Shown here: positions 8,821 to 39,374 of the stretch, piece after piece
How the letters are laid out: every line of letters starts with the position of its first letter
How positions within the stretch are numbered: position 1 is the stretch's first letter
NCBI GenBank assembly: GCA_000697665.1
Contig: KL197727.1
Span: forward strand, 682,001-746,000
Origin: Jaapia argillacea MUCL 33604
Lineage: Eukaryota; Basidiomycota; Agaricomycetes; Jaapiales; Jaapiaceae
Length of the DNA stretch: 64,000 nt
Reading direction: 5' to 3'
Notes under the pieces: generated by a model
Seen by the model: the letters and a program-made list of their open reading frames with translations, nothing else
Told to the model about the DNA's origin: nothing
Database searches by the model: none
Program-made: the position numbers and the translations under genes

Positions 8821-9527
8821 GTGGGTGTCAGCCTGAACTTTATCGTGCCAACCACAGAGTGCGATAGCCACAGGTCACCACAACCGTGTTGGCTCTTCAG
8901 CACCATGTGACCGTCGTTGCGCTAGATGGTGGCAGGGGAGCGGGGTGGCGGTCATAAGTGGTGGGAAGTGGTGGAGTGCACTGTGTAATTTTTGAGTGGT
9001 GCGAGAGTCCGCATATTGCAAGGCTCAATGTCGGGGCATACACAGAATCGTGGCCGTGGTCGACGCCAGTGATGAGTTGGTGCATTTTATAGAACCATCA
9101 TACAGAGATTCAGCCAATGTGTTGGTAATTGAAATGGTGGCAAGAAAAGAGGTTTCTTTACAGCGCTATTCATAATTATACTTCGGGAGTTGCTGTATTT
9201 ACGGAGACTCCAAAAACTATCACACGGGTAGTCCTTAGCACTGTGTATCAATCTTAGTGATCCTCAAAATGACTCCCATAGCCTTCCACACTTCCTCTAA
9301 AATTCTATGATATGGCACACCACAACTTGAGATACATATCCGGGGGTCTGTCCAGTTGAAACAAAAAAATCGACAGTAGTGGGGCTCAGGAGGCAATGAT
9401 CCATGACAAATTGGGTGGCCACTCACTTTCCCATCCACCATTTGAGGTCCACCACCTGCCTTATTCAGTGAACTTGAGACCAAGAACTGTGATGCAACTG
9501 TGACAGAGTGCTAAGAACTGTACACAG
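8821..9527. other. Intergenic transition into the repeat island
   Basis: No gene is recognised. To the left, sequence has the CpG-containing look of the host genes; by about 9.1-9.5 kb it becomes CpG-poor, like the repeats that follow. The 5 bp at 9523-9527 (CACAG) are the left target duplication of solo LTR B1. Confidence 0.5.
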
Positions 9528-10442
9528 TGTAACAGGTGTTTACTGGGGAGTACTCTCTAGTATCACTCTTCTGTTGAGTGTGGGCAGTTGGGTGTTGGAG
9601 TTTGAATCTCATTGTGTATTTGTGTAGTTGACACTTTCAAACATCATCTTTACTGCCTATTCACGAATTGACCTCTTTACTGAGTGTGTTGATTGTGTGA
9701 ACTAGGCAACTTATCTCATTTATAGCTGGTTATTAATACTACCAGCACTGCTCACAACTCAACCTCTATGAGAGGGTTGAGTTACAAGACTCTTTAGACT
9801 GCCAGAATCAAGAGTGACCTTTGGTCGCATTGTGGACACCTCTTCAACACAGGACAGCTGCAAGAGCAGCTGTGCCTAGCTTTCAGACAGCCAAGGGAGC
9901 TACTTACGAGTAGTGTGACAGGTGTTTACTGGGGACTGTTACTCTCCAGTATCACTCTGTATTAAGTGTGGGAATAGGTTGAGTGGAGTTTGAATTGCTT
10001 CAGGTATTTGTGTAGTTACTCTTTCAGAATTCATTCATCATTACAGTCCATTCACCTTCGGCCTCCTAAGAGAGCATGCTGATAGTGTGAAGTGGGCTAT
10101 CTTCATTTACTAGCTCTTCTCGAGACTCAGCCTCCCAGTGAGGGCTGAGTAGTGAGACATTACTTGGTTCCCTCGATGAGATTGCAACTAGGTTGCTATC
10201 TCTCTCTCCCTCTCCTGTGGAGGACATGCACACAGGTGCATGTGCCCTGGTTGATTATCCTCTGGTGTCCGTAGACAGCTATGGTCCTGAGGCATGCTCT
10301 GTGTGTATAGTCGACTACAGGCTACCTACAAGGTAGCTGAGGCTTTATGCCTTAGTGCCAGGCTCGAGGCTCGCCAGCCTCTCTGACAACATCTTTTCCT
10401 CCCATCATGGCAACACAGGTCAATCCCTGCCTGTCACAAAGG

Positions 10443-10455
10443 TGGACACTGGGAG
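10443..10455 (+). other. Candidate primer-binding site of A1
   Basis: The sequence TGGACACTGGGAG begins four bases after the left LTR. The same position relative to the LTR in A2 (about 24144-24156, minus strand) carries the same first bases. The leading TGG is what a tRNA 3' CCA end would pair with; the tRNA species is not identified. Confidence 0.5.
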
Positions 10456-13400
10456 ACTCGTCGTCTAACCTGGCTGGCCAACAACAAGCCCATTGATCAA
10501 GAGAATCAAATCTGTTGCATTCAAAAGAACACCACTCTACATGTACACCTCGCCCTTTTCTCAACACAAGATCGCGTGGATCTTCCTTGCAAGAATAATA
10601 CCTATTGAATTCTGCATCTCTGTGCATTCATACCCTCACGGGTGGCCAGACGTTCACAGCCTGGCTTCCATCACCTCGCCCTATTGCAAACGAGAGCTCT
10701 TCTGATCCGTATCTCTGCCACTGTCCATCGCTGTCTGTTCAAACTTACAGAGACTAGAATCTTGTCCAGTCCCTTCTCTCTCCTGTGCTCATCACCCCTC
10801 GATTGGCGCTCAGGCTTGCTCATTTGTGTGTTCCGATTCAATTTGTTGCCATGCCGTTGTGCACTCCAGCTAATTACCAAAGTGCTCGAGCAACCTCAGC
10901 CTTGAATTGTGACTCGACCTCCTCGCATGAAGAAACATCACCCATTATCTACCTCGCGTGTGCAACTACACCTCCTACATGCTACAGATCTACAACTCAC
11001 CTCTTGCTTAGGACAAGTTATTTGCTCCATACAATTCATGCTTCTTGTTCAATTTGACCCATGCTCTGTGCCTGCCTAGTCTCCACACTCCTGAGCACTT
11101 TGACTGTCGTTGTCACTGGCCCACTTGATGCTCGTACCCTCTATTGTGCCAATAGAGCCATGTGGACATCCTTGGAGCCTCACTTCATATATCTGCAAGC
11201 ACCCACAATTCCATAAGTGATCATCTTTCTGCTCTTGAGAGCCTCAGCACTCGAAGTGATTGTTTCCTACTCTGTGCGTTCCGAGGTGGTTGAACAAGTG
11301 TCTGTGATTGGTCGACATCTACTTCATATGTGTTGCTCAGATCACGCTCAACTTCTCTTGGCTTTGCCTCTCCAGGCTTTTGTGAATCAACACTCAATCT
11401 GTGCTGACTTGCTTGCTCGGTTTCTGATTCAGTTTTGTGTTCCATTCCTATTAATCCTCATTATTGTGGATAGTTTGAACCACAGCTCTCGGTGACTAGT
11501 CAACATTTACTTCTTGTGTGCTGCTCACCTCACATTCAACTCCTCTCTGCACCCTCTCACAAATATCAAGAGTTTTGTTTGTTCAGACCAGTCTTATGTC
11601 CTCCCTCACACAGTCATCTCATCACCCTCAATGACCTTGTGTGACTTTTGCAAACTCAAGCATTTGGCAGCGGTGTCCATCTTAAACCGATCACACACAC
11701 TATCTCCCTCACCCTCATCAGTTCACGTTCATTCCTATCAGTGTGTACTTCCTCGCGCTATCACTGCTTCTGCATTGCCTAGAAATGTCTGGAAACAACA
11801 TCTGTTTACCATTCATGGCAGTCTCCGAGGCTTTGGGGGGCTATAAACAATGGGTTTTGGAGAATCAAGAGATATTCAGGTGGATCATGAGAGTAGAGGC
11901 TTCTACACAAGGAGCACATCTTGTCTTAGGAAGCTACAGAGGCTTCATAGAACCATTGTGTGTACTGGGCTGTCTTACCCAGCTTACATCAACAGCTCTC
12001 TAATGTATTTCGAAGCTTCCGATCCATCCTGGAGGTGGACCCAGCCTTTTTGTTTGAGGCTGATCTTGGTCCTCACCAAGTTCTACTTCGAACACTCACC
12101 AAGAGCCTCTTCTCATGAAAGGTTGGACACTGCATAGTCAGGATTTCAAAACCTCCTCCTCTCCTTCTGTGCGAGACTACTTGAATATTATTGCAAGGGC
12201 ATCCTGGCCCTTCAGCAACATATTGAAGTTTTAACTACACATACCATTGTCGATGCTGACAATGATGTAACCTCATATGCAAGAGGAGCTATACAGGCAC
12301 TTTCACGCCTTGTGGGGGATAACCAATTGAATGAGCGAGATTATCAGAAATATCTGAAGGCTAAATCCTATCTTGACATCTGCACAAATCTCTGTAGCCG
12401 ATGTGACAGTCTCTGCAATGTTCACCACCACAACACTCGAATAGTTCAAGCTGAACTCAAAGCAGCTTGGTCAATGCTATCCTCTGTGGACATTGCCACC
12501 ACCGCCAGTGAAGCTCTCTTGTCAACTGTCCTTCTAGCTTGTGAATCTTCTTCCTCTCACTCTCTGCTGTCTGGGAGCCCAGATTCTCCTCATATCGAGA
12601 CCACTGGTGCCAATTGCAACAAGCCTCTGATGTCTATTGATATTTCGGGCTTGCAGAGTCCCTCAGGCATACACTATCCTATGAAATCACATCCTCCTAA
12701 AGCTGAAACCACTCCGCTGGGCTCTTCTACATTGTCAGAAACCCAAGGGGTACAAGAGAACTATGAAGGGTGTCAGGCACTTGGTGTGCCTCTGCTCATT
12801 TCAAGCACACAACTCGCAAATGACTGTTACAGTCATCAAGATTACCTGTGGATCCCACAGAGCAACTCACAAATCCTACCCTCCTCTCAAGAGCTTGGAC
12901 ATGTTGGATCGATGCCACCTCACACTGTTGATCCTCTTGCTCTCTCTCCCTGCTCGCTCCTCTCAAGGCCTTGCTCTGGGTTACCAATCACTCTGGCAGT
13001 CACAACTCCATCTCACTTATTTGTTCCACCTTTCGACAATGACAAAATGGCAGTACCTGGACAAGCTGAACCAACTTCATTGTTGGTTCACTATGCTGCT
13101 CACAGTTTATCTGGTCGATGTTTGGCTGTATTATCACACAGTGCGGCTTCAAGCAAACCCTTTCGTGCTGCCCAGCTCCCCACCTTCCAAGAAGGGCCTG
13201 TCGATAATGTTGGTTCTTGTACCCTGAATGTTTGGCACGACGGTCTGGAGTCCCCCCAGACTAAGCAATCTAGCTCGTGAATGATGTTGGGCTCATTGTT
13301 GTTGTGCCCTGTGAACGTGAAGCTTACTCTCTCACAGCCCAATTCTTCCTGGCTCAAGTGTCTGTTCCGACCGACATACTCAATGTGGCGAATGAGGAGG

Positions 13401-13928
13401 ACACTGGACGCCCCACTTGTGGAAAGTGGCACTTGATACTATTCAGGCTTGATGGTTGCTCCAAACGCTACTGCAGGCCTTGGTGATACTCAGCCTGACA
13501 TTTATTCAGACAAGACTAATGTGCATCAAGTACTCTGTCTTGCCACATCATCTCTGTCTGAAAGCACATCGTTCTATCTCACTCCTCGACATCCTCCACC
13601 CAGGCCAACAGCAACAGAATTTGTGCTGAAGGACCCAAACAAGCGACTGAAGGCCAGTGTGTTACAACTTTGTATACCCATTTCATTTTCTCTTATCTTA
13701 TCTTATCTTGGACGTCCTTGTGATGGGCAGGGATCAACCTGCTTTGCCACTACAGAAGGAGTTGGTGCTGTCAGATGGGCTGGTGAGCCTAGAGTCCCGG
13801 CACTGAGGTGTGATGACCTTGGTTGCCTCGTAGGTAGCCTGTAGTCATTACACACATATGAACGTGCTTCCAAGCCTGCAGCTGTCTGCAGTCTCGGAAC
13901 AAACAACCACAGAGTGCACACACCTTTG

Positions 13929-14461
13929 TGTAACAGGTGATTACTGGGATATACTCTCCGGTGTCACTCTGGATTGAGTGTGGGAAGTTGCAAGTCAGAG
14001 TTTGAATTACTCATGTATTCATGTAGATTCCTTTTTCAAAGAATCATCTTCTTACTGCCTATTCACGAATCGACCTCTTTACTGAGTGTGTCGATTGTGT
14101 GAACTAGGCGACTTATCACTTTTATAGCTGGTTACTATGATCACCAGCACTACTCAGAACTCAACCTCTACAAGAGGGTCGAGTTACGAGACTTTATCTA
14201 CTTCAAAATCAAGAGCAACCTTCAGTCGCATCGTAGACTCCTTGTTGACGCAGGACAGCTATGTAAACAGCTGTGCCTAGCTATTGAGTGTCTCAGGGAG
14301 CTATGAGAGTAGCACCTGAGGACACGGTCTCCACATATTCGATAGCGGGGCTCCCTGTGAGGGGTCTCACACCTCAGTACCAGCTCCAAGGCTTGCCAGC
14401 CCTCTAGACGACATCCAACTCCTAAGCTGTTGTGACGTGCAGGTCTTGCCTGGCCATTACA
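13929..14461 (+). mobile_element. Solo LTR, family B copy 2 (B2)
   Basis: This 533-bp copy starts TGTAACAGG and ends CCATTACA, with target duplication CTTTG at 13924-13928 and 14462-14466. It sits inside the 3' LTR of A2; the intact counterpart site can be read in the other A2 LTR near 24372. It is the youngest layer on this line of the nest. Confidence 0.92.
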
Positions 14462-15280
14462 CTTTGTGTATGCCCTAAGTGGGGAGGATCGGGACCTAGT
14501 CATGATCCAATCAAGAGAAGTCTTGCTACTCAACCCTCTCTAGGAGGCTGAGTCTCGAGGATCGCTAGTAAAATAAAAGAGAGCCCACTTCACGCTGTTG
14601 GCACTCTCTCAGAGGAGGCCAATTGTGAATAGGTAGTAATGATGAATGAATTCTGAAAGGATAACTACATGGATACATGAAGAGATTTAAACTCCGCTTA
14701 AATTATTCCCACACTCAATACAGAGTGACACTGGAGAGTAATCCCCAGTAGACACCCGTCACAGAGCCCCCCACTCTCCAGTATCCACTTCTGTAGTAGC
14801 CCCCCAATATATTGACTCTAAGCTCTTTGCATGTCCACAGCACTCCTTTGCATTAAGTGTATTCTAGGTGAATCTTCAGGAGTGAATTAGGAGGAATGTA
14901 TGGGTCACAAATCATAGGCATTGAGATAAAGGAGAGAGTTTGTGATCATCACACTTGGGTTTGAGGTAAACATTGATTGTTACCAAAAGCAGGGTGGGAG
15001 TGATTCAGGATTGGCCAAGGTGCCATCCTAAGCAGGGTGATGAGGGCTGAAGTGATCATACCAAGAGACAGGGGGATAGTCCCCAGGGGCCCTTACTCTG
15101 TTTGGAGTGACACCTTCTAGAGACGATGATATGGCATTCAAGAATGACAGAGTGTTGGGTTGGCCAGCAAAACAGGATAATGAACTTGCAAACGAAGTGA
15201 TAGTCCTGTACTTTGCTCAATGAAGAGCAGGATGGTCTAGCACATTGATGAGGGTGCCTGCTGTGGGGTTCAAAGCAAAC

Positions 15281-15382
15281 TTGAAAGGCTTGATAGATCT
15301 GGGTTGCCTGAATTCTGTCACTGATTGAACTTTGAAAGGCTTGATAGATCTGGGTTGCCTGAATTCCGTCACTGATTGAACT
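15281..15382. repeat. Tandem duplication, 2 x 51 bp
   Basis: Two nearly identical 51-bp units lie inside the A2 internal region; they differ at about one position. The duplication is not seen elsewhere in A1 or A2. Confidence 0.85.
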
Positions 15383-16078
15383 CTTGAACTCTTGAACACA
15401 GCTTTGGTCAAACTGGGCAGAGCCAGCTACAAGTGAGAGGGTGAGAGAGAGATTGCGATTGAGAATGGTATTGCAATGACTGGAAATATTCAAGTTTGTG
15501 TAAAATGCAGACTTGACCTTCAAAAACTCGTGGTGGTCTCTGACATTGAATCTTGCATAAACCAATGAGGACCCCATTGGCTTCTTCCAAAGGGTCAAGA
15601 TCCCAGTAGGTGACCAGTAGTCACTGTGCATACAAGAGCATGTCTTCGGGCACAGTGCTCTCGCCACACCACAAAGAAAACAACTATAAGGCAGGCACAC
15701 CTTTGTGTACATCCTACTCTGACTCAGGGATGAATGTGTCCATTGGCATTCCTGGAGAGTGCTGGAGTCATGTTTGTTCAGATCCTTCAGCACTTCCCAT
15801 ACCACAATGGACATAGGTGGAGGATGTGGAATATTTGTGGCCATGGGTTTGATAGTTGGTGAGAGTGAGTGGAAGTAATCAGCTATTAGTATTGTAGTGG
15901 GAACAAGATGACCATAGCTGTTGATCCATGGGCCTGGATATACACCTGTTACCAGGAGACTGTGGACAACCTCAGGATAGCAAAGGAATGAGAATGATTG
16001 TCCAAGCTCAACAAAAGAGTGCCAATGGTGTTTGCATGAAGTGTATGGAAACCAAGAGTTGACGTGAGTGGACCTGGT

Positions 16079-16441
16079 TGTTAGGGCAACACTATCCAAA
16101 CAACAAGGCCACCAGTCTTAAAGGATGTGGAATACTGGTGATGGTGAAAGGTAAGATTAAGAATATGCTGATGAGGATGAGTATATAGGCTGAGGACCAA
16201 TGACTTAGGCAGACATCCACATACTAGTGGTAATCCTAAGAGATTGAAGCTGGGGTAGTACTACAGTACAGGGGTTTATATACCTATGCCAAGGCTTGCT
16301 GACTAAGCATTGGCTGAGTAAGCTAGTGCTGACTAATTATTCTAGAAGGTTCTAGTAACCTCCAGCAGATTCTCTTCTATCATCATGTGACTAGTCATGT
16401 GATATGACCATTTAAGGAAACAGAAATGCTGACTCCTGACA
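16079..16441 (+). mobile_element. Solo LTR, family D copy 1 (D1)
   Basis: The 363-bp copy starts TGTTAGGGCAACAC and ends CTCCTGACA, with target duplication CTGGT at 16074-16078 and 16442-16446. It is almost identical to D2. Its right part is repeated across the assembly gap (16690-16890), which looks like an unmerged contig overlap. Orientation is arbitrary. Confidence 0.9.
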
Positions 16442-16457
16442 CTGGTACTCTGAGTTT

Positions 16458-16689
16458 NNNNNNNNNNNNNNNNNNNNNNNNNNNNNNNNNNNNNNNNNNN
16501 NNNNNNNNNNNNNNNNNNNNNNNNNNNNNNNNNNNNNNNNNNNNNNNNNNNNNNNNNNNNNNNNNNNNNNNNNNNNNNNNNNNNNNNNNNNNNNNNNNNN
16601 NNNNNNNNNNNNNNNNNNNNNNNNNNNNNNNNNNNNNNNNNNNNNNNNNNNNNNNNNNNNNNNNNNNNNNNNNNNNNNNNNNNNNNNNN
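16458..16689. other. Assembly gap 1 (232 N)
   Basis: The run of N is flanked by the same sequence on both sides: 16242-16457 and 16690-16906 agree except for one extra G in a G run. Confidence 0.97.
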
Positions 16690-19582
16690 GATTGAAGCTG
16701 GGGGTAGTACTACAGTACAGGGGTTTATATACCTATGCCAAGGCTTGCTGACTAAGCATTGGCTGAGTAAGCTAGTGCTGACTAATTATTCTAGAAGGTT
16801 CTAGTAACCTCCAGCAGATTCTCTTCTATCATCATGTGACTAGTCATGTGATATGACCATTTAAGGAAACAGAAATGCTGACTCCTGACACTGGTACTCT
16901 GAGTTTCTGGTTCCCAAGGGCCCAAGTATTGAAATCGATTGGGCCCACAGTCAGATAGACTGTCGGTGGAGACTCTAAAGGGCCTCACGTTTGTTGCAAC
17001 TGAAGTGAGGAAGACCAGAGCGCAATGAGGATTGGGTTCATAGTTGAGCTTGTTCTCAATTGTTGTCAACCACTGAGCACGGCTGTTGCTTTGCAGAGTG
17101 ACCAGATTGAGATCATGGGGAGGTGAAGGAGAAGCATCAGCAAAAGTGTTGCGATAACAGACACTTGTCACTTCTTCGAGACTCCAAGCAGTGATTGGAA
17201 ACACATGGGGACACTGAAATTGAGTTCTCAATGTTCTGTGTACAGAGGGTTGTATTTGAGTTGGAACCAACTGCTCAAGAGGCCAGGGTGTAACATTCCA
17301 GATGGACTGAGAGTCAAAACTGCTAGCCAAGCAAGAGAAGGGTTTCCAAACTGGTGTAGTAGTCGCATTGGCAGCAATATCCCAACCAACAAAAAGGCGA
17401 GATTGATCTCCCAGGCTCTGAGCTACATAAATACTCAAGAGCAGACAACCTTTGCTATCTGAAGAACAAGAAGCAGAACTGAGTGGGGTATTAGTGGCCA
17501 ACAAAGCCATCATCGTCGATGATGAAGCCTTGCCATCAGTGAAAAATTGGGAGACAGGATAGGAGGGTAATGCCATGATGGAGGGGGTAGTTCGTAACTG
17601 AGGACTTGAACTTGGAAGGGTTGTGTGGATGGGAGGCACAGTGAAGAGTCAGTGGTGTGACCGTATCAATCTGGTGCACAGAGGCTCTTGGGTAGATAGC
17701 CCAGTTCGAGTATTGCTTGGTGCAGCCCAAGGAGAGTCTTGACAACTGTACCAGTACTTCACTGAGGCAGGATTGCCTCGGTTGGGCACAATATTCATGG
17801 GTGTACCAATTCCTATGTCCTCCCACACAACTTCTCCACTCTTCATAGCTAATTTTGACCATTGTCCGTCTCCCAAGTCTTGCTGGGTACCTGATAGAAC
17901 TTGAGGAGTTGCCCAGACAAGATGACCATGCAATTCTCAGTAGTCAGTAGGTTTGCAAGTAATCGATAGTGATTTCCTGGAGCCCAACTGGAAATTTGAG
18001 AGGCAAAAAAACTCTGCACCGGAGACGGAGACTGTGGTGGTGGAGGTTCGCTGTCTGTATCAGAAACTGCCATACTTGAAAATCCACTACTCCTTGTTTT
18101 CCTGAGCTGCATCTGCGAGGATGAATAGATGCTGGCAGACGAGTGAGGACAAAAAGTGGCTGGAGGTAGCTCTAGGGTCTCAAACTTGGACTCAGAGATA
18201 GAGATGTCAACATTCACAATTGAAAGCCCTGTGGCAACAAGGAACAAGAAACAGAGCTGCGACCATGCAAGGTGAAGTCCTCGAACATCAAAGTGGCGAC
18301 TGTAGTAGAGCTTTACGCAAACCTCCAACTCAAGGATGGACATTGACTCCCCTGTGTGTGAATGGTCTCTATTCCTGACCATGGTGGCATGAGCTAGTAG
18401 TATCCCACTTGATTCCCCCCAGAGGATTGGGATCCTAGCAGGTAACCAGCAGCCACTACACACACAAAGTGTGTCTTCAGGCTGCGCTCTCACAACCCAC
18501 AGAAGAGAATGGCTGCAAGGCAGGTGTACCTCTGTACACATCCTGCACCCGTTAGGGAGTATTGAACTCTAGCTAGCTTATTTGGATCTTTCAACACTGT
18601 AAGGGAGTTGAGAGCTTGCAGAGCTGGAGTTGAAGAACCTCCTCTTGCAAGTGAAGCCTCTATAACTTCTACTCCTATTCACCTTGAGAAGGAAACCCAT
18701 GTATGAGACTCAAATGTGAACAATCTTGCCATATGAACCACCAGGTGCTTGTTCACATGGCCTGCCATATCTCTCCCAGCCCCCCGAGCCTTTGACAATC
18801 CTCGGATCATTTGCTGATTCTCCTCCATTTGATCTGTGTCAAAATCCAAGGACTGAGGTGCCATAGTTGGCAATCCAGCATGCAGGAGAGGTTGGCAGGG
18901 GCGAGTGATTGAGACGATTACATGGTTCACGATAGAGGATGGCAGAGCACCTGGAGTATTGGGTCCGAAGCCAACCATAGCTAGTAGGCAGTTGTCACTG
19001 GACACTATACTTGGAGAAGGAGTGTAGTTCAATTGTTGCCAAGCCTGAGGACAAAAGGCAGAGCAAGTGGGTGAGCAATTGCGAATGTGAGGTCCCCCGA
19101 TCAAAAGAGATACAGTGACCCAATGTGAGCTCATGGGAGGATCGTAGAGCGATAGGCAGTTAAGCACAAGACCAGCAGTATTCTGAGCGGGCAAAGAGGT
19201 CGATAACAATGGCATTGAACATAACTGTTTGCAAGTGTTCAAGTAGAATGGAGAAACATCATTGCACTGCATGCAAAGCTTTGACTCTAAGTCGATGTAA
19301 GTTTGGAGGATCCATACAGGGGTCCCAGTAGGTAACCAGCAATTGTCACACATGCAAGGCATGTCTTCAGGGCTGTGCTGTCGCAACCCATGGAAGAGGA
19401 CAATTGTAAGGCATGCACACCTTTGTATATGTCCTACATTGGATAGGGTGGCCAGAACTCGCTTATTTGGGTCCTTCACTACTTCGATGACCTGAAGAAG
19501 ATTAAATGGAGTGGAATTGTCAACCAGGATAGGCACTGTTATCCACCTTTGCCCTGAACTCGTGGGTAGCATTCTACACAAG

Positions 19583-20069
19583 TGCTATTACGACTTTGTG
19601 TATCTGTTTCATTTTTCGTTATCTTATCTTATCTCGGACATCTTATCTCGTCTCACCACGCCTTCTCTTGGGCTCATTCTATTTATACCCCGCTGTTCTA
19701 TTATTAACTTGACTACTCCATCTATACCCCATTCGGCAGGTTACCGACTCCCTGGACGTTCCACCCTATTCTCTATCTTTCTATCATGTTCTCTTGTATT
19801 CCTTGGATGCTATTCTTAGCGCCTTCTATATTGTTCTACTATGTTCTCCCCTTCTAGCCCTAGTATATAAGGTGCTCTCGCCCTCCTGTATTCCTTAAGC
19901 TTGTCCACTTGAACAATACAGCATCTTAGTCTGTACCCTTCAACTGGTTCGCTCTTGTTCGCCATCCTCTACAGCCTCAACTCATCGTAGCCTGAGTACT
20001 CAGTAAGCAAAGTATCCAAAAGACTTACAAGCCTTACTCGCTATCTTCGCTAACGCTAAGATGCTCGTA
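19583..20069 (+). mobile_element. Solo LTR, family C copy 2 (C2)
   Basis: The 487-bp copy resembles C1 along its length, including the TATATAAGG-type TATA box near 19864 and the pyrimidine-rich start. It is flanked by a perfect 5-bp duplication ACAAG (19578-19582 and 20070-20074). With these borders it would begin TG and end TA rather than CA, so the exact right border may be off by a few bases. Confidence 0.75.
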
Positions 20070-21240
20070 ACAAGTGTGGAGATTGTGCAAGAGTGGATTG
20101 GTTGTCTGACTCGTCTCCTGCCTTGTATGAAATTGCTCCCTTCAATATCTCTGGTGTTGAATTCCTAGGCTCCATGTTTGGAGGGCAAGGTCTCAAGATT
20201 GATTGTTCACTGAAATTGAATGGGGATCTTCCTCGTGTGTGGCCTGTCTGTTGCCCAGAGAGAGAGGCAGAATAGAGAGGTGAGGGAATGAGCCACTGTC
20301 TGGGAATACTACATTCATTGGAGATGAGTGTTATCAGTTTGTGACTTCAATGCACTGTAAAGCATCCTATGGTTTGCGACTCGCGAGGAGCCTTTTGGCC
20401 ACCTTCAGTACTTCTGAGCTCTCCCCAGGTTTGAGTAGCAACATGAAGACGGCGGGGTTGAGATCTCATTGTGCGAGGTCCAGAGGGTTGTCTGCATGCA
20501 GGCACCAATAAGTGAGAGTAGGGTTCACCACATTCAAGGCTCTGAACCACACAAGTACTCGAGAGCAGACATCCTTCACTATCTGGAGAATGCAAAGCAG
20601 AACCAAGGGAGTCACTCATAGCCAACAAAGCCATCGCTGTTGATAACAGAGCCTCACCATCACCAGGAAATTAAGAGACCAAATGAGATTGTGATGTTGT
20701 CATTGAAGGGATAGTTTGTAACCGAGGGTATGAACTCAGATGAATTGCATGGACGGCAGGCACAGGGAAGAGTCGGCTAAGTGGCCGCATCCTTCTGGAG
20801 CATGGACGCTCTCGAGCGTGTAACCCAGTTTGAGTATTACTAGGCGAAACCTATGGGGAGCCTCAATGACCATACCAGTCCTTCGCTAGAGCAGGACTGA
20901 CCTGGTTGAGTGTGATATTCATGGGTGTATCTATTGTCAAGACCTTGTCCTGATGCAGCTGAGTAATGTCCATCCTGGAGGGTAGTTCACTTGCAAATGA
21001 AGGTTCCGGAGTTGAGGTTGGTAGAGCGATTCCTGAATCTGAGAGAGCTGGAGACCTGGGGTGTTGGACAAGAGAAGTGGTTGTATGCTCCAAGACTCTT
21101 CTACCAGTCAACACCGAAGGACAGCCGTAGGCAAGCATAGATGTGACATTACAAGAATCCAAGCTACCAGTTGGGCAGACTTGTCCTCAGAGAGGAGGCT
21201 CTGAACACAGGAATTCTTGAGTAGTCGACGACGAGAGAGT

Positions 21241-21603
21241 TGTTAGGGCAACACTATCCAAACAACAAGGCCACCAGTCTTAAAGGATGTGGAATACTGG
21301 TGATGGTGAAAGGTAAGATTAAGAATATGCTGATGAGGATGAGTATATAGGCTGAGGACCAATGACTTAGGCAGACATCCACATAATAGTGGTAATTCTA
21401 AGAGATTGAAGCTGGGGTAGAACTACAGTACAGGGGTTTATATACCTATGCCAAGGCTTGCTGACTAAGCATTGGCTGAGTAAGCTAGTGCTGACTAATT
21501 ATTCTAGAAGGTTCTAGTAACCTCCAGCAGATTCTCTTCTATCATCATGTGACTGGTCATGTGATATGACCATTTAAGGAAACAGAAATGCTGACTCCTG
21601 ACA
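21241..21603 (+). mobile_element. Solo LTR, family D copy 2 (D2)
   Basis: This 363-bp copy is almost identical to D1, with target duplication AGAGT at 21236-21240 and 21604-21608. It is inserted in the A2 internal region. High identity to D1 suggests that family D was active recently. Confidence 0.92.
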
Positions 21604-21989
21604 AGAGTGTCGTTACTCAAGCTGATGTTTGCTGCATCCGGGGGCCAGTTTTTTGTCATTGATTTGTGGTAGGTAAGCAGAGTACAAGGATCCAACAAAT
21701 CAGCCACTGCAGATGAAGAGAGATTGCTGTGAGGCGTTGCCACAATGCAGGCTGAGATGTCCACATCTGCAAAGACAAGATCTGCAGCAGCTTGAAGGAC
21801 AGTGGATAGCAGAGACCAAGCCACATTGAATTCATCCCAGACGACTCAAGCATTGCAGCCACGTATATCAATGTTGTAGAGCCTATCGCAGCAGTTGCAG
21901 AGGTTCATGCAGATCCCAAGATAGGTTTCAAACTTCAAATATTTCTGATAATCTCAATCAGTCAATCGGTTATCCTCTGTAAGGTGTTT

Positions 21990-23245
21990 GCGGGTAGATA
22001 ATCTGGCTATCAGAAGGCCAAAACCACAACACACCACAAGATAGCCAGCTCCGGATTTGTCGTTAAATCAGGTTAATGTTTTGGAAGCTCAAGTTCTCAG
22101 AATCTTTAGACTTCCTTTTTCTGTTGTCTCGGTCCTGGGTTCTTATTCTCGGTGACTTTGTCTTGTTGCTCGTAGCAACAAGTTCTTCTCGATTGGTAGG
22201 CTTGTGGGTGATCCTCTGAGGATCTACTGAAATTCTTACTTGCACCTAGAGGGTCTAGGAAAAAGGTTGGAAAAAGCTAATATATTTCAATCTACCAGTC
22301 CTTATATAGTCTAGTGTGAGGCTGTGTACCAAACAAAGTGTAAATAGTCCGAAAATTGAATATTCTAGTCTGTCCAATCAGAAAAATCCAAGGAAAAGGA
22401 ATAAAACAAGGGGGCTGTGTTGTGGCTGTGTGTCCCACGTGGTCTTGCACTGCCTTTGTCACAGCCTTGCATAGCCATCTTAGGCTAGTCCAGAACTTCT
22501 TCAGCCACTGACTGAGTCATTCCTGCTTACTCCCGGTTCTAGCCCTAGTCTGACCAGATGTCATGACATCATGGAGTTCTAGAGTGCCCAGATGCTAGAT
22601 TGCTATGATCTCATGGTCCTGGGACATCTCTTTCTTTGCTCTACCCTTTCTTTGCTCTACCTCTCTTTGCTCTCCTATCTTTTGTTGTATGCTCGTCCTA
22701 AAATTCTTGAAAAATATAAATAAATATAGTCCATTACTAGAAATGCTTTCTTTCTAATTTAAGGGTTCTGTGAGAGGGGAGAATTGACTCTACAGACGTC
22801 TTAATGTCCTGTACTGAATTTCCTGTGGAAAGAAGGTTGTCTTGACTTGATGTGATTATAGTCTAAGAAAATTGGAAGCGGTAGTATCCTTTGTACTGTA
22901 TTTCTGGAGTATCTGAGACTGGTCAAACATGTCTTGAAGTGAAATTGGGTGCTAGAAAAAAAATAACAGAGGTCTGCACTCTTTTATTTCCCAGGTCTGC
23001 AATGCGCCTGTCCTGTCATTTCCCAAGTCCAAAAGTGATCGATTACAGCCAATGGGGTTTTATTCAGGGTCCAAGAGTGGGTAAGTAAGTACATGCACAT
23101 AGGGGAGAGTCAATCTGGATACAGGTATACAAGGGACGAGCAGATGGGAAGAGTAGTCAACAGATAAATGATGGTGGTACGGATAGTGAAAGAAACATTC
23201 AGTAAGGATAGTGAAAGAAGTGTTCAGACCAGCACAGTCGTCTGA
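21990..23245 (-). mobile_element. Unassigned LTR-like insertion in A2 (about 1.25 kb)
   Basis: The A2 internal tract that is collinear with A1 (12.2-12.4 kb) is interrupted here by about 1.25 kb absent from A1. On the minus strand the insert would begin TGTCAG near 23245 and holds a TATATAAGG-type TATA box near 22315, as a solo LTR would. No clean target duplication could be read, so the borders are approximate. Confidence 0.45.
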
Positions 23246-26200
23246 CAGCGTGTGAGTGCCTCTATCACTCCTCTCGCATACAAGGTTGCATCGTTGTCGA
23301 CATCGACAATCTTATGTGTAGTTACAACCTCGACATGCTGTCGAAGTGCCCAAACAGCCTTATGATAATACTCAAGCAGCATCTCATGAATTGAGAGGGA
23401 GAGGTTTTGGAAGCCCAACCAAGCAGTGTCCAACCACTTGCAAGAAGTGGCTTTTGTGAGTGTCCAAAGTAGAGCTTCTTGAGGATTAAGATCGACTTCA
23501 CAGAAAAATACTGGATTGGCCTCCAGGATGGCTCAGAATGTTCTGAATGTGTTGGCAAACCGTTGGCATAACCTGGGCAAGAGGGCCCAGTACACACAGC
23601 AGTTCTGTGATACCTCCGTAGTCTCCCAAGATAACATGTGTTCCTTCTGTAGTCTTGCACTGATGTCATGTAGGGCAGTAAGGTGACCGCAATTGTGTTT
23701 CCAATTCTTGATTCGCAAACACAAGTTTGGACGAAGGCAACTGCAATGATTGCTCGAGTGCAGACTGTTTGAAGAGCACTGGGTCATCGAGGAAGGGACA
23801 CAGTTTCATGAGGTGGTGTGGAGTGCAGGACAAACAACAGAAGACCCAAGATAATTAATACAGGTTATAGGTGAGGTTTGCAAGTCATGATAGCGACATG
23901 AACAAGAGTGTCAGGTTTCATGGGGTGAGGGAATGCAAGCCAAACAAATGAACAAACAAACACAGTATTTAGTATTCGTGTGAGACAGCAAAGTAGATTG
24001 ACAATTCAAGAGATACTGAGTTGTCGAACCAAGAGCCTTGGGTGGAAGGGAAGGCTGAAGGTTCCTGAGGGGTGCAAGGATGAAGACTGGATTTATTGAC
24101 TGATTTGAGCTCGTCGTTGGCTGGCCAGGTTAAACGATGACTCCTCCCAGTGTCCACCTTTGTGATGGGCAGGGATCGACCTGCTTCGCCACTACAGAAG
24201 GAGTTGGTGCCGTCAGATGGGCTGGCAAGCCTAGAGCCCTGGCACTGAGGTGTGATGACCTCAGTTGCCTTGTAGGTAGCCTGTAGTTGTTACACACGTA
24301 TGAATGTGCTTCTGAGCCTGCAGCTGTCTGCAGTCTCGGAACAAACAACCACAGAGTGCACATGCCTTTGCATATGCCCTAAGTGGGGAGGATTGGGACC
24401 TAGTCACGATCCGATCAAGAGAAGTCTCGCTACTCGACCCTCTCTAGGAGGCCAAGTCTCAAGGATTGCTAGTAAAATAAAAGAGAGCCCACTTCACGCT
24501 GTCGGCACTCTCTCAGAGGAGGCCGATCGTGAATAGGCAGTAATGATGAATGAATTCTGAAAGGATAACTACATGGATACATGAAGAGATTTAAACTCCG
24601 CTTAAATTATTCCCACACTCAATACGGAGTGACACTGGAGAGTAATCCCCAGTAGACACACCTGTCACAGTCCTATCTCATCTTATCGTGCCTTATCTTG
24701 GACTCATTCTATTTATACCCTGTTGTACTATTATTAACTCAACTTCTCTATACCCTATTGGGCAGGTTACTGATCTCTTGCACATTCTGCCTTGTTCTCC
24801 ATGTTTCCATCATGTTCTCTTGTATTCCTTGGACACTATTCTTGGTTCCTTCTCTATTGTTCTCCTAGGTTCCACTGTTTTGACTCTAGTATATAAGGTT
24901 CCCTAAGCTTGTCCACTTGAATAATACAGCTCTTTAGCCATACCCTTCAACTGGTTCACTCTCGTTCGTTATCCTCTACAGCCTCAAGTCATAGCCTGAG
25001 TACTAGTTGCTAAAGTGCTCCTAACACAGTGATGCTCGACAGGCATGCCTCACAAGTTCAGTGTCTCATTGCCAACCCTCTTGTACTACATATCTCTCTA
25101 GTTGTAGCTCGCATTGCAATTTGAGATTTAACTGTCTCACGTCCCCTTCTTGTCATGGCACAAAGGGTGTGCCACAAGGTCCATATCTGGGTTTAGTGAG
25201 CACTCTCCTCTTTCGGACGGCCTTCTCTACAACTCTACAACACCAATCTCTCAAGCCTTCCTCAATGGAACCTGCAATTAAAGATCCTGATAAGATAGTC
25301 GCCTCTCCCCTATCTAATCTAGGACATATACAAAGGTATGCATACCTTACAGTTACCCTCTTCTGTGGGTTGTAAGAGCACAGCCCTGGAGACACACATT
25401 GTGTGCATGGTGACTGCTGGTTACCTACTGTGATCTCTACCTCTTCTGAGAAATTAATGGGAATATCGCGAGCACATGTCACAGAATTCAATGTCAGACA
25501 ATGTTGTCTGAAGGTCAAATTCCTCCTCAAAGATTGGACAAATCTCTGTGACTGTGATGACTCAGATATTCTCCATGATGTTCAAGTTGGTTGATGCTCC
25601 CCATGCATATACAATCAGCTACCGGCCTTGTGTTTGCAATCATCAAACTCTCAGCTTCCAGCTCAAGAGTACACAACTCTACCTTTGAGGCTTCCAAGAC
25701 TTGGACACGACAAGCCACCACCAGCACCAAGATCCTCTCATCGGTGACTACTTGTCGACACATCCACTTGATATCTCCTCATTTTCAGCCAACCAGGTTC
25801 TCTTTCAATTCGCCATTCGCTCAGTGTTCCTCTCATGCATACTCAAGACTGGACCCTCTGCTGGAGATTCTCCACCTCACAGCGATAATTCACTGCCAAC
25901 TATGACTCAGATGATCAACCATCTGAAATCCTATGTTATTTGACCTCCTGTAATTACGGTCTCTCTCAAAGTTGCTGGTTATCTGGAACCCCATTATTGG
26001 CAAGTCCAAGCAGTTCTGGTCCAGAGGATCTCAATGAAAGTAGCCTCTCAGTATGTTCACCCTTGGAGGGAGCTTTCCAGGCCCTATCGGGTACCAGACA
26101 AGATTCAAGAGAACCACGAAGGTCAATAGAAACTATTGGAAGTGGACTGGCCGCATGTAGTGACACAGGACCTGCTGTGTCAACAATTGTCATTCCCGAT

Positions 26201-29200
26201 TGCACCGACTCCAAGTCTGCCACCGCCAAGGACTGGTATGGTTGTCGAGATTGCCCATGGGTTTTACTGAGTGATTCTTGAACCAGGCTATCCACCCAAG
26301 AGCTTCCATGCACCAGATCGATATGGCTGCACAGCCAACTCTCCTCTGTGCCTGCTATCTGTGCAACACTTCCAAATTCATGTCCTCGGTTACGAACTAC
26401 CCCTTCCATTGTGGCATTACCCTCCTATTCCATCTGCCAATTTTTTGGTGATGGTGAGGTTCTGTTATCGACGATGATGGCTTCATCGGCCACTGATACC
26501 CTGCTTGGTTCTGCTTCTCATTCTTCAGATAGCAAAGGTCATCTACTCTTGAGTATTTCCATGTCTCAGAGCTTAAAATGTGGTGCCAGGCAATCTCACC
26601 TCTCCATTGATTTGAGTGGTTCTGGCACTGCAGCCACTACCTTGGCTGGGAAACCTTCCTCTTGCTTGTCAGCTTTGACTCACAGATGACCCTCTGGACC
26701 TCACACAATGAGATCTCAATCCTGCCTTGTTCATGTAGCCACTCAAACATGTGGAGAGTCCACGAGTTCTGAATGCAGGCAAAAGTGGACCCCTCCTTAT
26801 GAGTCATGAACCATCAGAGGCTACAGGATGGTCAGAAACCCAGAGGGCTACAGAGGAGTACGAAATACACCAGAAACAGGGCATCCCTCATGCTGTAACA
26901 AATGCTCCAGTCATGGATGATTGGTGCAGCCAGCAAAGCTCTCCTTGGATCAGACAACACAAATCACAAGTGATATCATCCCATCCAAAGTTCGAACATG
27001 TTGTGGCAAGCGCTAGCCTTGTTTCTTGTTCATTCCTATGGACAATGAGAGTACAACCTTACTGTTGTCTACCTGATTCCTTTGGCCCCACCAATGAGTC
27101 CTCATCTAAACTCAGGTCCCTTTCACTTTCTGGGCATCACTCAGTGGCGATACAATGATTTCGCTGCAACATTCACTAATGCTTCCTTGCCGTTCTACTT
27201 CCACACTTTGGTGCTGATATAAGCTCCTTCACACCAAAGGGCCCTATGGATGCTTGCTTGTGTGCTCATTCCACATCAAGAATGGTTGTCAATGGCTGTG
27301 CCAAGGCTCTGTCCCTGGCTCTTCAGAGACACATCTACCCTAGGCTTCCTTCCTCTCAGACTCTACCACCAGCAATTAAACAATGTAAACAATGTGATCA
27401 CCCTCAAGTGTCGACCAGCATTTTGCCTTTGCATGTCACTTCTCATGCACAAACACCTACCAAATTATGCCCCACCAGCTACAACACCACTTCCTCTCAA
27501 GTATTATCCAGCAATATATTCAACTGTCCAACTGTGGCCACTTCTCGGAAAACTGTCTTCACGGCTCAGCTACAGCCACCTCCAGCAATTATTATTTGGG
27601 TAGGAGTGTTGAAGGATCCAAACAAGCAACTAAGGGTCCCTTCCTCAATTCTCTTTGATGTAGGACATACATATAGGTGTGTGTGCCTTCTGGCTGTTCT
27701 CTCCTTTGAGTTGCGGAAGCTCTGCATGTGTAACGGCTGGTGGCTACCTACTAGGACTTCTCTGTGGATCCTCCAAGTTTGCATGGATTTTAAGTCAAAG
27801 CTCCCTACACCATGGTTATTGATCTCTTCACCTGCTCAAAATACCGCTGGTGTGGCACTGAAATGCTTCTCCCTGCAAGTCTGCCATTTTCCCGCAAGTT
27901 TACAAGTTCCTGTATCTCCTTTGATCCAGGGACTGCATGCCCATGATGGCTTGTTATCCACTTGCCCCTTGCTGAGAATTGAATTTTGCATTATCTCTGA
28001 GCATGGTACTTATCACAATGTCTCCTCCCACCACAAAGGTGTATCGTGTGCTTGATATGTGCATAGTGCCCAGCGACAGGTGTCTGCTGACTATAGTTGG
28101 CTTTGGACCCAGCACTCCTTGCCCTCTGTCACCCTCTATCGTGAACTATACAGTTGTTTTGATCACTCCAAATCTCCACCGACCTCTCCTGTGCCCAGGA
28201 ATCCCAGTCTGGGTGTACTGGTATCAGTCCTTGGGTCCCAGTGATGCAAATAAACACAAGGATTGGTGGAATATCTGAGGATTGTTGGAACCTTGGGGGG
28301 CTGAGAGAGACACAGGCCGCTCGAACAAACACCCAGAGGATAGTTGTAGCCCTTGGGATCTAGTCATGCTTCAATTGTGTAGTTCATCATCTCTTGTTCC
28401 CACTTTCACCACACCATCAAGTTGATCCTCTGCATTACAATCCTCAAGGCAAAAAGAGGATTGTGAGGTGCATTGGATCTGGGACACAAACTAATTCAGA
28501 AGATCTACTCCTTTGGTCACATCACCATCATGCTGGCTCACTAGATCTCTCAGTGAGGGTAAGACCAGTATTTTGGTTTCCTATATCCATTCTCGCACAC
28601 TCACACCTACCAGGAGTTCTGGCTCTACAACTACTTGTCAACTTCCCATTCCACCACGAGTCCAAGCCCTTGGACCTCATCCAGAACTATGAATGCTGGT
28701 ACCCCAGCTTCCATGGCCATATATTGGGTACTTAACAACTTAACCTCATTTGAGTACATATTCTAAACAAGACTCCTTGGCTCTCTTCCTCTCAACTATG
28801 AACTATCATTATATTCAACATACCACTACAAATGCTCACTATCATGCCTATGGCCTATGTTTTTCAATCCTTATCTCCCTTTTTAATTCACTCTCAACTT
28901 TTCTACTGGACTATATTGCAGAGAGGTGTTACAGAGACATGAGTAATTTCCAACCAGGGGAATGGGGGGCTGATACAGAGTGGATACTTGAGAGTGGGGG
29001 GCTATGTGACAGGTGTTTACTGGGGACTGTTACTCTCCAGTATCACACTGTATTGAGTGTGGGAATAGGTTGAGCAGAGTTTGAATTGCTTCATGTATTC
29101 ATGTAGTTACTCTTTCAGAATTCATTCATCATTACAGTCCATTCACCTTCAGCCTCCTAAGAGAGCATGCCAATAGTGTGAAGTGGGCTATCTTCATTTA

Positions 29201-29686
29201 CTAGCTCTTCTCAAGACTCAGCCTCCCAGTGAGGGCTGAGTAGTGAGACTTTACTTGGTTCCCTCAACGAGATCACAACTAGGTTGCTATCTCTCTCTTC
29301 CTCTCCCATGTAGGACGTGCACACAGGTGCATGTGCCCTGGTTGATTATCCTCCAGTATCTGTAGACAGCTATGGTCCCAAGGTATGCTCTGTGTGTATA
29401 GTCGACTACAGGCTACCTACGAGGCAGCTGAGGTCTTTACACCTCAGTGCCAGGCTTGAGGCTTGCCAGCCTCTCTGACAACATCTTTTCCTCCTGTCAT
29501 GGCAACACAGGTCAATCCCTGCCCATCACAAGTAGCACCTGGCAACACAGTCTCTGTGCATCTGACTGCAGGGTTACTTGTAGAGGGTTTCACACCTCGG
29601 TCCTGGCTTGAGGCTTGCCAGCCACTGGATGGCACTCAGATTCTCCCACTGTAACGTAGCAGGTCTTACCTGGCTGTTACACACAG

Positions 29687-30186
29687 TGTAACTAGAATCT
29701 GCCAAGCTCAGTAATTCACTGCCAATGGGCTCCCTACCACAAATTATATTATGTGGATTTTATGGCATATAGAGCACAGTATATTGCAGAGGTTCCCATC
29801 AAAAGTGTTCCCATAAGTGAAACATGGGACAAGCCAGACACAAACATTAAATCAGTGCTAAGAACTAACTACCTGTGTGATAGTATGGTTTGGAATGTTT
29901 TGTTTAGTCTTCAAGTTTCAACAAGATATACTGTATGTATACTTAGGAGTTGGGAGACCACTGGCCAACATTTTCAATTATTGCTATTTTTGGAAAAGAT
30001 GGCTCATGTAATTTTTTTGTGTGGAATTTTTGTCCTCCACCTCTTGTTAACATCACAAGGACAATATCTCCCCAACACCTGTGTGTATCATCTTCATTCT
30101 TGCTGTGGGCTCTAGCCATGAAGTGTCTCTAGGTCCTCAACAAGGCTTAATGACAAAATCTGGTGTTTCTCAGCCTCCATCATCTG
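29687..30186. other. AT-rich intergenic stretch
   Basis: No gene, repeat or RNA was recognised. This is the flank into which B1 and A3 inserted; the last five bases (ATCTG) are the left target duplication of A3. Confidence 0.5.
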
Positions 30187-30701
30187 TGTGACAGGTGTTT
30201 ATTGGAGATTACTCTCCAGTATCACTCTCTACTGAGTGTGGGAATAATTGAGGTGGAGTTTCAATCCTTCATGTGTTCGTGTAGTTACTCTTCCAGAATA
30301 CAATCATCATTATCAGCCTATTCACCCTCAGCCTCCACAGCAAGTGTGCTGATTGCATGAAGTAGGCTACTTGTTAGTTTACATCTCTTCTCAAGACTCA
30401 GCTCTCAAGGGAGGCTGAGTAGCGAGACTTGTTCTGTTTCCTTCTTGAGAACACAACCTGGTCACATTCTCTCCCCATAGGACATGTACACAGGTACATG
30501 TACCTGTGGTCAATCCTCTCTGGTGGCTGTAAAAAGCTACAGCTCCAGAGACACATTTACATGTGTGTAATTGACTACAGGCTACCTCTACCAGGCAGCT
30601 GAGGTCCTCACACCTCAGTGCCAGGCTCGAGGCTTGCCAGTGCCTCTGATGACACCAGGACCTCCTGTAGTGGTGATACAGGTCAATCCCTGCCTGTCAC
30701 A
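30187..30701 (+). mobile_element. Solo LTR, family A copy 3 (A3)
   Basis: The 515-bp copy starts TGTGACAGG and ends CCTGTCACA, with target duplication ATCTG at 30182-30186 and 30702-30706. It is clearly related to the LTRs of A1 and A2. Confidence 0.92.
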
Positions 30702-31086
30702 ATCTGCAGCATTCTCAACCACCAAACCCCTCTCACACATAGTTCATAGACTCACACTATGATGCTTTGGCCTCTCAAAAGTACCCTCATTCAACCCTGT
30801 GGATGTCTACTTGAGTCTCCAGCCCCTTGCTTTGCATCTGCAGTCCCAATCTCAGGTGGGTTCTTTGTTCTATCTGTTCTGTTATGTTCTGCACAGTAGC
30901 ACACTTGTTTTGTATGTCCCTCTGACTGCTATCCCCTGGAAGGCTGACAGCAGCTGGAAGTAATGTTTTCAGCTTGAATTGTCACCCATTTGATGTTAAT
31001 TTTGGCTGCTTGTGTTGTTCAAGACACATTTTCCTTGCCCTTTGTGTAATCACATCTATCTGAGCCGGTCTTCAGTCCTAGTTGGT

Positions 31087-31190
31087 GTTGGGAGCTGATT
31101 GACTGCGACCACATCTGTCCCCACAGGGGATTGAACTCAGGACCTCCTGGTATGGCTGAAGGTTGGGGTTAGGATTGGTCCATAGTGGAC
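31087..31190 (-). repeat. SINE-like repeat, copy S1 (head only)
   Basis: On the minus strand the copy carries the pol III B-box match GTTCAATCC inside GAGTTCAATCCCC, like a tRNA T arm. The same ~100-bp head recurs at 34966, 35160, 35776 (reverse) and 37096 (reverse). Confidence 0.7.
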
Positions 31191-31364
31191 GCTGAATGTT
31201 GGTCAGGTAGGTTGTGACCAGGTTTTGTGCAATTCTCAGACAGGTGTCCAAGAAAGCTGGGGGGTTTGGGCTGTATCCACGGGGACAGAGGACGAGTCTA
31301 AGGCAAGCTCAACACCAGGTTTAAGGTGGAGTGCTAATCTGGGGGTTTGGGCTGTATCCACGGG

Positions 31365-31731
31365 NNNNNNNNNNNNNNNNNNNNNNNNNNNNNNNNNNNN
31401 NNNNNNNNNNNNNNNNNNNNNNNNNNNNNNNNNNNNNNNNNNNNNNNNNNNNNNNNNNNNNNNNNNNNNNNNNNNNNNNNNNNNNNNNNNNNNNNNNNNN
31501 NNNNNNNNNNNNNNNNNNNNNNNNNNNNNNNNNNNNNNNNNNNNNNNNNNNNNNNNNNNNNNNNNNNNNNNNNNNNNNNNNNNNNNNNNNNNNNNNNNNN
31601 NNNNNNNNNNNNNNNNNNNNNNNNNNNNNNNNNNNNNNNNNNNNNNNNNNNNNNNNNNNNNNNNNNNNNNNNNNNNNNNNNNNNNNNNNNNNNNNNNNNN
31701 NNNNNNNNNNNNNNNNNNNNNNNNNNNNNNN
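31365..31731. other. Assembly gap 2 (367 N)
   Basis: The N run is flanked by the same sequence on both sides (31182-31364 and 31732-31915, one extra G in a G run). The flanks include part of an 82-bp tandem repeat. Confidence 0.97.
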
Positions 31732-31808
31732 ATAGTGGACGCTGAATGTTGGTCAGGTAGGTTGTGACCAGGTTTTGTGCAATTCTCAGACAGGTGTCCA
31801 AGAAAGCT

Positions 31809-31972
31809 GGGGGGTTTGGGCTGTATCCACGGGGACAGAGGACGAGTCTAAGGCAAGCTCAACACCAGGTTTAAGGTGGAGTGCTAATCTGGGGGGTTTG
31901 GGCTGTATCCACGGGGACAGAGGACGAGTCTAAGGCAAGCTCAACACCAGGTTTAAGGTGGAGTGCTAATCC
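31809..31972. repeat. Tandem repeat, 2 x 82 bp
   Basis: Two almost identical 82-bp units, each starting with GGGGGGTTTGGGCTG, lie right of gap 2. About one and a quarter more units lie left of the gap (31258-31364), so the true array may be longer than assembled. Confidence 0.88.
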
Positions 31973-33640: not shown

Positions 33641-33711
33641 ACTTGTGTTCTTCACCTCTGACACAGCTTGACCCAGGCTCCCCAAGTGCTAGATTATTCC
33701 AGCGCTTCACA
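33641..33711 (+). repeat. SINE-like repeat, tail fragment (S6)
   Basis: This fragment matches the 3' part of S3 and S4: a CTCTGACACAGCTTGA segment followed by a small hairpin (AGTGCT...AGCGCT) and CTTCACA. Confidence 0.55.
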
Positions 33712-34016
33712 GTTGGACCATGGTTGGTTTGTTCTTGTCATAGGAGTGCCAGGGAGATGGGGAGGAGTCAGATTGATTTAGTTGAGAGTGCTTCATGTGG
33801 TGCCACTGAGATCTGAGGCTGAGTAGAGATTTCTCCATTGTATCATTACATGATAAGTTCCTCTAGGCAGTCTAATTGGGTAACAATCATTGCCTGTTAC
33901 CATAGCATGTTGCAACACATCTATAAGATGTCCTGTGAGTGCTTGCTGACCTTTTGAACCCCATCAACCCTCACAACCTGGTTCTGTATAGCCCCTCCAT
34001 TTTGTTTGGACATCAT

Positions 34017-34948: not shown

Positions 34949-34965
34949 TAATGTTGGGTTGATCT

Positions 34966-35159
34966 GTTGGGAGCTGATTGACTGCAACAACATCTGTCCC
35001 CACAGGGGATTGAACTCAGGATCTCCTGGCATGGCTAAAGGTTGGGGTTAGGATTGGTCCATGGTGGATGTGGCTTGGAACTGCACACTATTATGTAACT
35101 GTTGACTTGTTCTCTGCAGAGTTGGGCTTGTGTTCTTTGTCTCTGACATGGCTTGACTT
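34966..35159 (+). repeat. SINE-like repeat, copy S2
   Basis: The copy starts GTTGGGAGCTGATTGACTGC and carries the B box in reverse. It runs through a GGTTGGGGTTAGGATTGG segment to a CTCTGACA tail, and is followed head to tail by S3. Confidence 0.75.
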
Positions 35160-35470
35160 GTTGGGAGCTGATTGACTGCAACCACATCTGTCCCTATAGG
35201 GATTGAACTCAGGTCTCTTGGAGTGGCTGAGGATTAGGGTTAGGAGCTGATTTCTCTCTGATACCTGTGGGAAGAAGTGGCTTGGTGCTTGACAGTATTA
35301 TGTAATCACTGACTTGTTCTCTGCAGAGTCAGGCTTGTGTTCCTCATCTCTGACACAGCTCAACTCAGGTGTGTAGCCAGGTGTGTAGTATAATGGTTTT
35401 GTAATGAATATATCTCTGACACAGCTCAACTCAGGGTTTTCTGAGTGCTTGATTATTCCAGCACTTCACA
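35160..35470 (+). repeat. SINE-like repeat, copy S3
   Basis: This copy has the same head as S2 and includes a short internal duplication near the tail (around 35350-35435). It ends in a small hairpin (AGTGCTTGATTATTCCAGCACT) and CTTCACA. It faces S4 tail to tail across a spacer of about 70 bp. Confidence 0.75.
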
Positions 35471-39220: not shown

Positions 39221-39222
39221 TA

Positions 39223-39372: not shown

Positions 39373-39374
39373 TA

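Follow-up and report, generated by a model that had tools for sequence, protein, structure and literature searches.

The 64,000-nucleotide stretch of Jaapia argillacea MUCL 33604 analysed here (contig KL197727.1, positions 682,001 to 746,000; hereafter the window) belongs to contig C19 of a 95-contig genome of 43.7 Mb, and it contains two long terminal repeat (LTR) elements of one family, A1 and A2 of family A, whose paired LTRs differ chiefly at CpG dinucleotides. This dominance of CpG-type differences, noticed in an initial annotation of the window, was confirmed and is general in family A. With a probability of about 85%, we attribute it to slow deamination of methylated CpGs, a process already described for basidiomycete transposons. 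On this view, the fungal host of family A would methylate its transposon DNA at CG sites. Following insertion, the initially identical LTRs would become methylated at CpGs on both strands, and each methylated cytosine would deaminate to thymine, slowly and independently, until almost no CpG remains, a hit on the top strand giving TG and one on the bottom strand CA. With the remaining sites diverging at an ordinary slow rate, the pairs would come to differ mainly as CG versus TG or CA, or as TG versus CA, which is the pattern they display.

The boundaries of both elements were assigned in this analysis: A2 occupies positions 9914-29530 on the forward strand, and A1 (13719-24669) is nested within it on the opposite strand. 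Their terminal features are as follows.

9914..10438, forward strand: 5' LTR of A2, starting with TGTGAC; 39 differences to its partner, 29 of them CpG-type
29005..29530, forward strand: 3' LTR of A2, ending with TCACA, the AGTAG duplication directly after it
9909..9913 and 29531-29535, no strand: target-site duplication AGTAG of A2, exact
13719..13928, reverse strand: first piece of the 3' LTR of A1, which is split by a solo LTR; the A1 duplication GTCCT is exact
14462..14763, reverse strand: second piece of the 3' LTR of A1; its first 5 bases are the duplication CTTTG of the solo LTR
24161..24669, reverse strand: 5' LTR of A1; 35 differences to its split partner, 33 of them CpG-type

Differences were scored as CpG-type where both copies show different members of the set CG, TG and CA at the same dinucleotide. 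The A2 LTRs differ in 39 of 525 aligned columns, with 35 transitions and 4 transversions. The 29 CpG-type columns fall in 19 dinucleotides, nine of which are TG/CA, one CA/TG, and nine with CG kept in one copy; one further CG is intact in both copies. The "roughly thirty" A2 differences reported initially are in fact 39, with 29 of CpG-type. A1, said to follow the same pattern, does so more strongly: aligned as two pieces, its LTRs show 35 differences in 512 columns (about five of which are counted twice, where the pieces overlap the duplication CTTTG), all transitions and 33 CpG-type. A random transition would appear CpG-type with a chance of 0.17-0.25, and the binomial p values for the excess are 5e-16 for A2 and 5e-12 and 8e-10 for the A1 pieces, assuming independent columns, yet a TG/CA site occupies two.

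Six more family A pairs (C8, C27, C54, C4, C1 and C14) were drawn from 47 matches of the A2 LTR in the genome, a number that is a lower bound. Each alignment carries 0-2 gap columns; that of C14 is without the first 7 LTR bases, and that of C8, the second LTR of which is a fragment, spans only 208 columns and has its two strand labels flipped (read on the forward strand, the element being on the reverse). CpG enrichment persists in this wider tabulation: 189 of 246 differences in 3,803 pooled columns are CpG-type and 228 are transitions, the 57 non-CpG differences comprising 39 transitions and 18 transversions. The weakest pair is C14, with 28 CpG-type differences out of 47, and the lightly decayed C27 retains 30-34 CpGs per LTR, 28 of its 36 visible CpGs being intact in both copies. 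The two target duplications match exactly around A1 and A2; reading by eye shows the same for C27, C1 and C14 and a one-transition mismatch for C4, C8 and C54. The C4 and C8 duplications (L014/L016 and L008/L031, respectively) differ by eye as CG/CA; CpG decay therefore extends to the host bases beside the insert. In an all-versus-all comparison of 28 LTR copies (378 comparisons; loci were available for 30 of the 47 matches, and two short ones, L028 and L031, were dropped), the CpG-type share declines from 0.89 at ≥95% identity (one pair) to 0.24 below 75% (203 pairs), as expected if CpGs saturate first.

Outside CpG, the distance between paired LTRs is 0 in C8, 0.0023 in C27, 0.0044 in A1, 0.0090 in C1, 0.0152 in C4, 0.0206 in A2, 0.0310 in C54 and 0.0391 in C14. 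In the same order, the raw distance is 0.0096, 0.0176, 0.0684, 0.0557, 0.0681, 0.0743, 0.0998 and 0.0904, and the estimated CpG loss per copy is 0.15, 0.12, 0.66, 0.48, 0.61, 0.82, 0.71 and 0.89. CpG loss follows the non-CpG distance (rho 0.88, p = 0.004, n = 8 pairs). The suspected fast decay of CpG sites is borne out by a pooled rate at CpG cytosines about 46 times the transition rate at other cytosines (bootstrap 31-86), with single-pair ratios of 25-115 and zero non-CpG change in C8. The value of 46 is if anything low, because non-CpG transitions were counted without polarity and every one was attributed to a C or G site. What the presumed CpG methylation costs in mutations can in this way be estimated directly from the LTR pairs.

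The annotation was likewise right that usual LTR dating would give ages too old, as the raw distance overshoots 2.3- to 15.5-fold in the seven pairs that also differ outside CpG, and about four-fold across the eight pooled. A2 shows 7.4% raw divergence versus 2.1% outside CpG, and A1 6.8% versus 0.44%. By raw distance the two are of almost the same age; by non-CpG distance A1 is younger, in agreement with its nesting in A2, because of which it must be the younger insertion. On the deamination reading, the raw LTR distance works as a CpG clock that saturates and does not tell age. Transposon bursts are commonly timed by LTR dating; in family A this method exaggerates divergence and blurs the order of A1 and A2, which the non-CpG sites restore.

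Both elements lie in a CpG-poor island that contains further insertions.

9501..40000, no strand: CpG-poor transposon island; flanks richer in CpG, right edge sharp near 40000
9527..9881, forward strand: LTR fragment of the same broad family as A
13929..14461, forward strand: solo LTR of the same broad family as A, inside the LTR of A1; duplication CTTTG
16079..16441, forward strand: M-family solo LTR with zero CpG, within the A1 body; duplication CTGGT
21241..21603, forward strand: M-family solo LTR with zero CpG, within the A1 body; duplication AGAGT, an insertion separate from the copy at 16079
30187..30701, forward strand: solo LTR of the same family as A; duplication ATCTG

Exact 5-bp target duplications flank all six insertions, namely A1, A2, the two family-A-type solo LTRs and the two M solo LTRs. 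The observed/expected (o/e) CpG ratio is 0.06-0.39 in all fifteen 2-kb bins between 10 and 40 kb and 0.63-1.01 in the other seventeen bins of the window. In 0.5-kb bins it falls from 0.51 (9001-9500) to 0.13 (9501-10000) at the left edge, with an exception of 0.69 at 10501-11000, and rises from 0.15 (39501-40000) to 0.81 (40001-40500) at the right edge. Genic controls have a median of 0.94 and a range of 0.65-1.07 over 28 loci at 21 places (25 overlapping SNF2 loci, which fall at 18 places, and 3 methylase loci). In the CpG-poorest part of the island (o/e 0.06-0.12, bins 34-40 kb), repeats some 200 bp long, direct as well as inverted, form a cluster at 34955-35777. Two runs of N, of 232 bases (16458-16689) and 367 bases (31365-31731), have near-identical flanks (16242-16457 and 16690-16906; 31182-31364 and 31732-31915, respectively); these flanking stretches of about 184-217 bases are 99.5% identical at both gaps, which are probably unclosed assembly gaps rather than real duplications.

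Stop codons point the same way. In the RVT_1 matches, for which 150 out of 178 candidates were scored (two equal-scoring rows on C58 possibly being one duplicated stretch), 99 stops are TGA, 5 TAG and 7 TAA, and inside 30 RVT_2 matches the counts are 39, 7 and 3, respectively. This TGA excess, judged without a codon-usage expectation, is what CGA to TGA changes predict.

The search for DNMT genes suggested by the annotation was successful. Profile PF00145 gave five exon matches (nine candidates) at three loci in the genome. The locus on C4 has its methylase upstream of an SNF2 domain, both on one strand, and three adjacent open reading frame (ORF) pieces match, in order, PDB 7r76 over the methylase (388-592, E 2.2e-85), the middle (634-1122, E 1.3e-118) and the SNF2 part (1151-1592, E 1.5e-85). 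This structure, with the entry name Rad8, we take to be Cryptococcus Dnmt5. The C4 locus therefore has, by its domain order, the DNMT5 layout of a predicted DNMT5-type gene. At the loci on C5 and C2, a BAH domain precedes the methylase, the pieces of which have DNMT1 as their best structure matches (E 5.8e-9 and 1.3e-13, respectively); both are predicted to be BAH-bearing DNMT1-like genes. The parallel search for RID-like genes was negative: by domain content, no RID-like or Masc1-class gene occurs among the three PF00145 loci, and no fourth locus was found in a six-frame search, which may miss short exons. As for repair, a PF03167 profile search of the genome gave no match, TIGR00628 produced exon matches at two UNG-like loci, below the curated cut-off, and TIGR00584 (Mug/TDG type) picked up a pair of exon matches in C24:378113-378576 (E 1.7e-5 and 1.6e-3), also below the curated cut-off. 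The HhH-GPD domain occurs at three loci in the genome. One locus, L079 (C21:290303-290728), holds a 324-aa HhH-GPD glycosylase ORF with PDB matches to endonuclease III and, more weakly, to plant ROS1 (E 5e-14).

RIP mutations (repeat-induced point mutation) come in bursts, running along one strand. A RIP-like process, also proposed by the annotation, would recognise repeats in the sexual cycle and actively mutate their CpG cytosines, many at once; the restriction of low CpG to the transposon island and the rate ratio of 46 would suit it. Neighbouring CpG hits, however, lie on the same strand in 87 of 173 cases, against shuffle means of 88 and 91, in a test that, by simulation, has a power of 0.97 when neighbours share a strand with probability 0.65 and of 0.68 when they do so with probability 0.60, and the flanking base has no effect, either before (p 0.51) or after (p 0.92) the CpG. 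Of the CpG sites, 51 survive in both copies, 99 in one and 45 in neither, where independent hits on random strands lead one to expect 56, 89 and 50 (p = 0.36). Young pairs such as C27 are hit only lightly, CpG loss being gradual with age; in PMC12543289, individual crosses of Neurospora produced between 0 and 108 mutations in a repeat construct. The index (CpA+TpG)/(ApC+GpT), as described in PMC4165359, is lowered by CpA-directed RIP but raised in the island (1.41 vs 1.19-1.20 in the flanks), and no RID-like gene appears by domain content at the three PF00145 loci. As the main process, RIP-like mutation was rejected on the tests of shared strand, motif and relation to age and on the RIP indices. 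The analysis does not support it, nor any process that is strand-processive or bound to a motif; even with the CpG-biased hypermutation of Rhizoctonia solani having been termed RIP-like (in PMC4014442), we consider a RIP-like process quite improbable for family A. A weak CpG-restricted mutator without strand memory may be involved. The artefactual explanation, in which paired LTRs stem from different insertions or the alignments or assembly are in error, could draw on the N gaps with near-identical flanks and on a supposed LTR pair at 16077/21239 that turned out to be two independent solo LTRs. It is scarcely credible in view of target duplications that are exact in five pairs and one transition apart in the other three, and of the nearly gapless alignments.

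Methyl-CpG decay agrees with the CpG focus of the transitions, with hits independent on both strands and free of motif, and with the gradual course; support for the methylation itself comes indirectly from the methylase genes, the island CpG o/e set against the genic 0.94, and the TGA stops. Of the two processes first proposed, the methylation-linked one gained this indirect support and the RIP-like one was not supported. Several points weigh against it. In A2, which alone deviates, the 9:1 split between TG/CA and CA/TG hints at a strand bias and would favour a RIP-like process; strand heterogeneity across the copies together has p = 0.10, so the bias does not hold, and the strand-processive mutation it had suggested was discarded. 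In the island, TpA/ApT reaches 0.75, slightly above the 0.60-0.62 of the flanks, and so leans a little towards RIP. Sites mutated alike in both LTR copies are invisible to the pair comparison. In mammals, the CpG mutation rate ratio is 10-15; the ratio here is higher, and given a value of about 46 plain deamination may fall short of the whole story. A variant compatible with gradual methyl-CpG decay would have it sped up by weak T:G repair or by a deamination-accelerating enzyme. The ratio and its bootstrap range speak for this variant, which we nevertheless hold to be unlikely: no absent repair gene is demonstrable, with UNG-like and Mug/TDG-type exon matches found, and few replication errors per year would presumably also raise the ratio. 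The idea that lost T:G repair explains the high ratio was dropped, since these loci turned up despite the PF03167 blank.

The M family took another course. Its LTR of 363 bp has 18 genome matches, two of which are partial repeats beside N runs, and the twelve copies read (L064-L075) are 96-100% identical to the window copy. CpG is absent from ten of the twelve, with one CpG in one copy and two in another, compared with about 15 expected from composition; exact 5-bp target duplications flank single M LTRs in seven. Only 4 of 31 minority changes among the copies are in CpG context. In L076 and L081, the interior of the M family consists of N. The 16077/21239 pair, with 4 differences, none CpG-type, was first considered an LTR pair and, on the evidence of the duplications, stands outside the eight pairs. 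As at the gaps of the window, a partial M copy follows an N run in L067. If M had still carried CpGs when it spread, copies this divergent would be expected to differ in many CG/TG/CA columns, like those of A; M most likely lost its CpGs before spreading, through selection or passive decay of the source copy. A more speculative proposal, which we regard as possible but doubtful, is that CpG methylation and its mutational cost selected CpG-shedding lineages, M escaping CG methylation and promoter decay while A keeps decaying; if true, the CpG-free M LTR would be the outcome of an arms race.

Family A itself has TG...CA LTRs, in direct repeat, with a 5-bp target duplication, and may be non-autonomous. 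No RVT_1 (150 of 178 candidates scored) or RVT_2 lies within the eight paired copies among the matches listed. No Pfam match over the cut-off was obtained for 10 of the 14 ORFs (≥110 aa) of L077, the little-decayed C8 copy (C8:154601-162750), or for the 10 island ORFs scanned. The interior of L077 contains a 129-bp repeat with three occurrences.

Compared with known systems, the decay of family A shares with Neurospora RIP the C to T transitions in repeats, but the CpA context, the many mutations per cross and RID are features unseen here. With Rhizoctonia solani AG8 and Heterobasidion parviporum it shares a CpG to TpG bias, reported for these fungi in PMC4014442 and PMC5870257, respectively. 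TGA is the commonest stop of the annotated R. solani genes (PMC4014442) and likewise leads in the RVT matches here. In these two species, the bias was reported for single-nucleotide polymorphisms, in R. solani in genes and repeats alike, whereas here the flanks of the island keep a CpG o/e of 0.63-1.01. Amselem et al. (2015; PMC4352252), in the part of their survey dealing with basidiomycetes, associate a CpG signature with a class IIA Masc2-like Dnmt1 and no RID; J. argillacea resembles these fungi in its CpG-only signature, its BAH-bearing DNMT1-type genes and the lack of any RID seen. Table 2 of that survey gives three basidiomycetes with one Dnmt1 each, while two BAH-bearing methylases and a DNMT5-type gene are predicted here. 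In Austropuccinia psidii, transposon CpG loss increases with age without a classic RIP signature, methylation being a hypothesis there (PMC8063080, in its treatment of CpG loss), and in two Pleurotus, basidiomycetes with methyltransferase genes of this sort, CG methylation was measured and found mostly in transposons (PMC5974365, in its methylation results). In comparison with both, methylation is deduced here from sequence, and LTR pairs combined with target duplications resolve the decay insertion by insertion and provide a rate ratio.

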